64,000 nt of DNA, taken from Oscillatoriophycideae cyanobacterium NC_groundwater_1537_Pr4_S-0.65um_50_18 (GTDB taxonomy: Bacteria; Cyanobacteriota; Cyanobacteriia; Elainellales; Elainellaceae). The position numbers and the translations under genes were made by a program. Below are positions 4,116-60,506 of the stretch, in pieces. The notes beneath the pieces are model-generated. The model worked only from the letters and a program-made list of their open reading frames with translations, was not told the origin of the DNA and did no database searches. The DNA is taken from positions 744,001 to 808,000 of the forward strand of contig JACQYI010000009.1 of NCBI GenBank assembly GCA_016208305.1, written 5' to 3'. Numbering within the stretch: position 1 is the first letter of the stretch; every line of letters starts with the position of its first letter.

Positions 4116-4301
4116 AGGACTCCAAAAATAGCATCGGTCTGTCGCCGTTAACGGCACCAGTCTGGGTCAGACAGATAGGAATTGAAAAATTAGCGGCGCG
4201 CAGACTGGAGCAAATGCCACAATTTTGCATTTTAGCAGCAGCTTATGCCTATTTTACCAACTCTTAAGGGTGTTTTCATTCGGCTGGCGTAATTTAGCCC
4301 T

Positions 4302-59247: not shown

Positions 59248-59622
59248 ATGTCTCTTGAGAAACTGCAACCTGCAAACCCCCGTGATGTTGGCGTTTACGC
59301 CCCCTATTATCAGGGTCGCAAAAAAAGCGCTCTGCCTTTAGCCATTAGCCTGTATCAGACAGGAAATCTGGAGGGGCTGCGTAAAATTGAGGGCGGCGAA
59401 AGTATTCCTTTTGTGGCAAGTTGGAATGTTTCGACTTTGCCCTCTGAGCTGACTCGCTGCCGCCTGCAATTTGATGGCAGCGCTGATTTAAGCTACGAGC
59501 TGATGCTGCCAAACTTTGAATTTGTAGATTTTTTGATTGAGGTGCTGTTTACGTTCAAAGGCACCCGGATCGCCGATTTTTCTCAGGGTTTCTATCGCAA
59601 ACTGTTGCGCTTAGACGACTAG
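59248..59622 (+). CDS. ebsA: EbsA-like type IV pilus/biofilm protein (124 aa)
   Basis: The product matches the short cyanobacteria-specific EbsA family: EKLQPANPRDVGVYAPYYQG, IPFVASWNVSTLPSELTRC, LQFDGSADLSYELMLPNFEF, and a C-terminal DFSQGFYRKLLRLDD. EbsA was defined in Synechococcus as needed for type IV pilus function and biofilm self-suppression. The identification is by recalled pattern. AGGAAGA just before ATG 59248 supports this start rather than the TTG at 59242. Confidence 0.72.
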   Translation: MSLEKLQPANPRDVGVYAPYYQGRKKSALPLAISLYQTGNLEGLRKIEGGESIPFVASWNVSTLPSELTRCRLQFDGSADLSYELMLPNFEFVDFLIEVLFTFKGTRIADFSQGFYRKLLRLDD

Positions 59623-59724
59623 CAGATCTGGACGATGAGCAAATTAGCCCTCGCTTTAATCTTTGTGACCGCCTTGATCTTTGTGACATAGCCGTAGCCA
59701 TTGCTTTTCGGGCAGAGCTATTGA

Positions 59725-59934
59725 GAGGATGTTTGAAAAGTCCAACTAGGGGTAGCGAAACGTTTCAGATCCCCTTAAATCCCCGCGCTATCGCGTCGCT
59801 GCGCTAGAAAAAAGGGGGACTTTGAATTCATTTCCCCCCTTTTTCTAGACGCGAAGCGGCTTCCCGCAGGGTAAGGGGGCAGGGGAGATCAACAGGTGCC
59901 TAAAATCACAGCCGACCACTTTTTAAACATCCTC
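59725..59934. mobile_element. Non-autonomous MITE, 210 bp, with TGA target duplication
   Basis: The ends are inverted repeats GAGGATGTTTGAAAAGT (59725-59741) and its complement with one mismatch (59918-59934). Both sides carry TGA (59722-59724 and 59935-59937), a 3-bp duplication. Inside, two arms of CTAGAAAAA plus G-rich sequence (59804-59818 and 59834-59848) form a second hairpin, and CCCCTTAAATCCCC-type motifs typical of cyanobacterial MITEs occur. There is no transposase gene. The TNA duplication suggests mobilisation by an IS5/IS1031-like element; that is inference. Confidence 0.82.
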
Positions 59935-59995
59935 TGAGAACAGAGCCATTTTTGCGGCCACGCTTGTCTCTGTCTTAACACTTGTAACTATAGCC

Positions 59996-60038
59996 ATGAA
60001 AAAACGGTTGGAGACAACACCTCCAGCCGTTTTTTCAT
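59996..60038. terminator. Bidirectional terminator between ebsA/MITE and aroH
   Basis: ATGAAAAAACGGTTGGAG pairs with CTCCAGCCGTTTTTTCAT (one G-T pair) around a 7-nt loop, giving six T on either strand. Confidence 0.88.
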
Positions 60039-60119: not shown

Positions 60120-60506
60120 CTAATCTCTTATGCCTACCATGCTCCAATCGGGGCGAAGGTGCTTGGCTTGACGCAGATAGGAGTGGTGAATGCGCGTGGC
60201 AGGTTCAGGCATGTTGATGTGGATGAGGCAACGGATGCAGCGTTCCAGGCTTCCTTCTACATACATCTGCTGTACATCCAGAAGGGCAACATTTTGCCAG
60301 TGGGTTCTTTCGCGGGCGATCGCAGCAGGATAAACGGCATCTAAATCGCGGGTGGCAGAGAAAGTGACGCTAACAATATCGTCGGGATCAATCGGATTGC
60401 GTTCTTCCAACTCATTCAACAGCTCGGTGACAGCTTCTCGAATGGCCTCTACTGTATTGTCTGAGGCCGTTGTTGCCCCACGAATTGCCCGCACTTTCCA
60501 GCCCAC
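60120..60506 (-). CDS. aroH: Chorismate mutase, AroH type (128 aa)
   Basis: Monofunctional trimeric mutase that turns chorismate into prephenate for Phe and Tyr synthesis. Key features are KVRAIRGATTASDNTVEAIR with the active-site Arg, VSVTFSATRDLDAVYPAAIA, and the C-terminal HSYLRQAKHLRPD. The start is taken as GTG 60506, eight bases after GGAGG; a TTG two codons earlier is too close to that site. It follows sppA by 108 bases on the same strand, an arrangement common in cyanobacteria. Confidence 0.93.
   Translation of the reverse strand: MGWKVRAIRGATTASDNTVEAIREAVTELLNELEERNPIDPDDIVSVTFSATRDLDAVYPAAIARERTHWQNVALLDVQQMYVEGSLERCIRCLIHINMPEPATRIHHSYLRQAKHLRPDWSMVGIRD

Follow-up and report, generated by a model that had tools for sequence, protein, structure and literature searches.

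A 210-bp MITE of a multicopy family between ebsA and aroH in an Elainellaceae cyanobacterium: probable IS5-family source and varied hairpin loop contents

Small dispersed repeats (SDRs) of 21–27 nt, some of them located inside mini-transposons, were reportedly described in cyanobacteria by Elhai and colleagues in 2008, who are said to have proposed that repeats of 20–30 nt are among the smallest mobile DNA. A separate paper (PMC4390886) describes insertion of SDR5 at one fixed point of HIP1. Cyanobacterial MITEs, namely Nezha and those of Anabaena sp. 90, appear in the relevant passages as short, non-coding, multicopy elements with inverted ends (PMC10969869, PMC3542288), and a passage on Anabaena sp. 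90 reports no evident similarity of its MITEs to the IS ends of that genome (PMC3542288). In the IS5 family, members of the IS1031 subgroup prefer TNA and make 3-bp repeats, and one of them is described with 17-bp ends, a TNA target and a 3-bp repeat (excerpts of PMC12016507).

The element investigated here resembles these systems in several respects. It lies at positions 59725–59934 (forward strand) of the window, the whole 64,000-nt stretch of DNA that was analysed, and shares the length of the ends, the TNA target and the 3-bp repeat with the described IS1031-type element; nearly the same ends flank IS5-family transposases. Unlike IS5/IS1031 insertion sequences it measures 210 bp and lacks a transposase. 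It is also short, non-coding and multicopy with inverted ends, as Nezha and the Anabaena sp. 90 MITEs are described to be; unlike the Anabaena sp. 90 MITEs, it has a matching IS in its own genome, in pieces.

A preliminary description, made from the letters of the sequence, had proposed a MITE at 59722–59937, TGA duplications included, and the same boundaries were recovered and family copies were found. The left terminal inverted repeat, GAGGATGTTTGAAAAGT, occupies 59725–59741 (forward strand) and its 17-bp right counterpart, ACTTTTTAAACATCCTC, 59918–59934 (reverse strand) with one mismatch, so that 16 of the 17 positions pair (18 nt at 94 % in an inverted-repeat search), in agreement with the 17-bp repeats proposed. 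The expected 3-bp TNA duplication is present as TGA on both sides (59722–59724 and 59935–59937), and TNA was found in 43 of 54 elements of the family. As had also been noted, no ORF is present: none of at least 40 aa in the window's ORF list overlaps 59725–59934. The window element is thereby confirmed as a real 210-bp MITE with a TGA duplication. The core contains two C-run/G-run hairpins, and the repeats nested in both loops had been missed. Hairpin 1, recognized by comparison with 162-bp core copies, spans 59781–59818 (forward strand) and holds repeat A (59785–59807, reverse strand), which is 23 nt long with the consensus CTAGCGCAGCGGCGCGATAGCGC and has one mismatch in the window copy. Hairpin 2 spans 59834–59879 (forward strand) and holds the 28-nt repeat B, TAGACGCGAAGCGGCTTCCCGCAGGGTA (59846–59873, forward strand). 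The insertion had further been called fairly recent, which holds only in a relative sense, the window copy differing from the backbone consensus at four of 126 sites.

As both DNA (z −5.0) and RNA (z −5.7), the 59725–59934 strand folded better than every one of 200 shuffled versions. Single hairpins with inserts, and repeats A, B and C alone, did not fold clearly better than shuffles, and a special fold of these parts is therefore unsupported. A scan of the element against Rfam gave five matches, all far under the cut-offs, and six of the sequences were searched for in the literature, where none was found.

The preliminary description had anticipated further pairs of such ends in the genome, and this was borne out. 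In the 6.94 Mb of the own genome (85 contigs), at least 57 stretches matched the element, with 40 of 109 candidates scored, and end-like sites with up to three mismatches numbered 180 compared with 28 for a reversed control pattern, which argues that the ends are not due to chance. Fifty-four elements were delimited; the census is incomplete, since the regions were drawn from selected element matches and the first 100 of the 180 terminal inverted repeat sites. A 3-bp direct repeat was present in 43 of the 54, in every case TNA (TAA in 23, TTA in 18 and TGA in two), and 11 had no matching triplet. When flank partners were shuffled 2000 times over the 55 rows of the duplication table, in which one place (L077) was counted twice, TNA repeats averaged 20.9 with a maximum of 33. 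Among the 43 elements with a duplication, C preceded it in 30 and G followed it in 29, giving a target of roughly CTNAG. Six elements (seven of the 55 rows) had the ends in common with the family but not the core, and were excluded from the table of loop contents on account of a low core score; the core was shared by the other 48, of which 39 have a TNA direct repeat.

An IS5-family transposase with such ends, as foreseen in the preliminary description, was found in pieces in the own genome and as elements of 910–933 bp elsewhere, with one to three differences per 17 positions. Contig breaks are expected within a repeated IS, and the pieces lie at contig ends: at the end of contig C40 an element preceded by TTA begins with GAGGATGTTTGGAAAGT and goes on into the start of a transposase ORF encoding MTLAYVSELTLEQYELFESLL, and a transposase tail with the right IS end was found at the start of C67 and at the end of C38. 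The ends of this own-genome IS5-type element, GAGGATGTTTGGAAA, differ from the MITE end at one (left) and three (right) of 17 positions. In the orientation of the IS, TTA comes after the C67 end, in agreement with C40, whereas TAA comes after the C38 end; there are thus probably two IS copies, and it is possible that the pieces derive from more than one element. A complete autonomous copy was not encountered in the own genome, where only these contig-end pieces were found. The IS was compared with the rest of the own genome over its first 209 bp, which matched nothing there, and the MITE therefore did not arise by simple deletion from that IS end. Other IS5 transposases of the own genome, on contigs C59, C82, C3, C52 and C17, were rejected as partners, having no matching end pair at up to five mismatches.

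In relatives, elements of 926–933 bp bear such ends. Three full-length ones (L137, L139 and L149) have broken reading frames and unmatched flanking triplets; the transposase segment of L139 scored 140.5 bits against NF033580 (IS5 family; cut-off 110) and also matched PF13340 and PF01609. Three plasmid elements were examined out of 20 matches listed and 1987 records in all. IS5-family elements with closely similar ends and TNA duplications are carried by plasmids in Nodularia spumigena UHCC 0039 (911 bp, GAGGATGTTTTAAAAGT ends, TCA duplications) and Leptolyngbya sp. BL0902 (910 bp, GAGGGCGTTTGAAAAG ends, TGA duplications), and that of Aulosira laxa has unmatched triplets, so that among the full-length elements a TNA duplication was seen in two of the three on plasmids and the triplets were unmatched in Aulosira laxa, L137, L139 and L149. 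The transposase probably comes from an IS5-family element of the IS1031 type. The ends, the duplications and the copy number of the MITE were observed directly, and we infer that it is moved by an IS5 transposase of this kind.

In the taxonomic family to which the own genome belongs, the element was matched in 13 of 36 genomes and seven of 21 genera, the own genome included and many of them in parts only. In one complete genome (G030) all four copies examined were 163 bp long with matching TNA triplets, and in a congener (G005) three of eight copies examined had matching TNA triplets. The exact left end had no match across named genomes, a search from which records near the window's genome may have been omitted.

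At the insertion site the upstream neighbour is ebsA (59248–59622, forward strand; NF045587, E 1.7e-53), encoding the type IV pilus biogenesis protein EbsA, and the convergent neighbour is an aroH-type chorismate mutase gene (60120–60503, reverse strand; PF07736, TIGR01796). Downstream of the MITE, the space between these two genes contains a terminator-like hairpin (59996–60038), and a weak terminator-like site of five pairs crosses the right end of the MITE at 59932–59945. The suggestion that the 3' end of ebsA could be altered did not hold for the coding sequence, which is untouched: the stop codon is at 59620–59622 and the MITE starts 102 bp further on. An influence on ebsA is possible solely via the 3' untranslated region; the insertion between convergent genes would probably be neutral, or at most lengthen the 3' untranslated part of ebsA. 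An 18-bp unit, CGCTTTAATCTTTGTGAC, occurs in two tandem copies that are 89 % alike at 59652–59687, after the stop codon of ebsA and before the MITE.

A comparison with empty sites in relatives, likewise proposed in the preliminary description, succeeded in part. Two congeners (G005 and G007) have the same convergent aroH after ebsA with no MITE in between, and a landmark within aroH that is common to the three genomes lies 514 bp from the ebsA stop in the window's genome, compared with 191 and 101 bp in these two; in a third congener (G006) a contig ends near ebsA, which makes it uninformative. No alignable intergenic DNA was seen around the site in G005 and G007, and the comparison therefore establishes absence of the MITE rather than a base-exact empty site.

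The copies in the own genome fall into length classes of approximately 162, 182, 189 and 210 bp, which correspond to the two hairpins being each filled or empty. Hairpin 1 reads CCCCCTTAAAAAGGGGG when empty and is otherwise filled with repeat A or with a further repeat, C; hairpin 2 reads CCCCCCTTTTTAAGGGGGG when empty and is otherwise filled with repeat B or with a nested second MITE that has GTGTAC-bearing ends. The 48 core-sharing copies comprised 16 with neither repeat, six with A alone, six with B alone, seven with A and B (the window copy included), three with C and B, and 10 with the nested MITE, so that all four combinations of A and B occur. Here ‘neither’ denotes the absence of A, B, C and the nested MITE alike; L060 and L065, which belong to these 16, have other extra sequence. 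The position of each repeat was constant, with A (18/18) and C (3/3) before the middle of the core and B (17/17) after it, each in one direction.

Loop contents did not follow the relationships of the backbones. On a backbone tree reconstructed without the hairpins, which was built from short backbones of 126 columns and had low resolution, with 26 of its 43 inner branches open, 28 changes of loop state were required compared with a mean of 28.3 after shuffling, and a number as low was obtained in 106 of 200 shuffles. Three copies with identical backbones at three sites (L036, L039 and L054) have B alone, A alone and neither, respectively, and among nine backbone pairs with at most one difference the loop state differed in seven; random pairs agree in 17 %. 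When each of 18 variable backbone sites was tested against A and B, no clear linkage emerged (lowest p without correction, 0.09 for A and 0.04 for B). The nested MITE clustered on the backbone tree, with six changes compared with 9.1 and a number as low in one of 500 shuffles. The inserts were about as diverged as the backbones, both for A (18/414 compared with 117/2264 sites, p 0.54) and for B (10/442 compared with 73/2140 sites, p 0.24), and mixing therefore seems to have preceded or accompanied the spread of the copies. A later entry of the loop repeats than of the copies was considered and found to be unsupported for the same reason.

The repeats also occur outside the MITE family. Repeat A was found at 20 places in the own genome (up to two mismatches), including C-run/G-run hairpins outside the family, as at L130 and L135, and repeat B at 16 places (up to two mismatches within the last 23 nt). 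All 16 B places have a C-run and a T-run in front and are preceded by TAGAC, and 15 continue into a G-rich stretch; at one place (L102) the nested MITE interrupts directly after repeat B, and at another (L100) repeat B lies within the second MITE family. In a cross-species search that covered repeat B only, exact matches in named genomes numbered 46 places in 43 stretches, all cyanobacterial by title, with TAGAC ahead of B in 41 of the 46. Eleven of the 46 lie in C-run/G-run hairpins as defined by our own rule, all of them in MAG RM1_2_2, and 35 do not, which indicates that B is an independent dispersed repeat and not a part of the MITE. In its length of 20–30 nt, its varied contexts and its presence in many cyanobacteria, with a spread over filamentous ones, B is like an SDR, and A, B and C resemble cyanobacterial SDRs as these are said to have been described. 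As SDRs have reportedly been found within mini-transposons, a MITE with repeats in its loops can be classed among known kinds, and the point of interest is how freely the loop contents are mixed between copies that are otherwise near-identical.

In G005 (L251–L254) and G030 (L232–L237), A or similar repeats were seen in C-run/G-run hairpins inside other repeats. In two Nostoc genomes (L256, at approximately 4226–4253, and L263, on the reverse strand) B lies in tRNA-like sequence within a long tRNA array; ARAGORN listed no tRNA at the B-containing tRNA-like place in the Nostoc array.

We consider it highly probable that the window element is a non-autonomous IS5-family MITE, probably of the IS1031 type, with loop contents mixed among the copies of its family. 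The transposase of a full-length relative, such as those of approximately 910–933 bp found elsewhere, would recognize the 17-bp ends, and insertion would take place at C-TNA-G-like sites with duplication of TNA. The near-palindromic core has two C-run/G-run hairpins, with A and B in a hairpin each and in one direction. Loop contents would have been mixed without regard to the backbone, and the most likely route is template switching or short-tract gene conversion between the many copies. That the inverted repeat arose by chance and is not mobile has a negligible probability, being refuted by the copies elsewhere in the genome, which are up to 97 % identical to the window element and most of which have duplications of their own. 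It is also very improbable that the element is retained because its structure is useful, for example as a 3' untranslated stabilizer or a transcription barrier for ebsA and aroH. The strong fold, the position between convergent genes ahead of a terminator-like hairpin and the weak site at 59932–59945 are in keeping with such a role, but the MITE is absent here in two congeners, the Rfam matches are all far under the cut-offs and related elements are present at dozens of further sites.

A rival that we regard as possible, if doubtful, is that A and B are still mobile and entered the hairpin loops in many copies of the MITE by separate jumps instead of by exchange. Repeat B does occur at unrelated places in Nostoc, Calothrix, Scytonema, Oscillatoria and others, mostly with TAGAC ahead (41/46), and in a relative (G011) it lies in C-run/G-run hairpins with other surroundings; moreover, hairpin 1 takes two different repeats, A and C, and B lies at the corresponding point of hairpin 2. 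Free insertion would not predict, however, that each repeat keeps to one hairpin in the own genome (A 18/18 and C 3/3 in hairpin 1, B 17/17 in hairpin 2), and the A and B inserts are no less diverged than the backbones (p 0.54 and 0.24). Mixing among copies of an IS5-type MITE remains our preferred reading. A further idea, which we hold with low confidence, is that MITE hairpin loops may serve as exchangeable slots in which tiny repeats are swapped at the same position and in fixed orientation; if true, a process that prefers DNA hairpins would carry out the swaps, both between copies and between MITE families that are unrelated. The analysis ties a cyanobacterial MITE family to a likely transposase, and its dozens of near-identical elements form a natural set in which the spread of 20–30-nt repeats can be tested copy by copy.

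The second MITE, with ends like CTACCGTGTACACACA, was located by its GTGTAC motif in the hairpin-2 loop of 10 of the 48 copies. Copies of it lie at L049, L055, L061, L067 and L068 among others, and those examined have a similar two-hairpin core.
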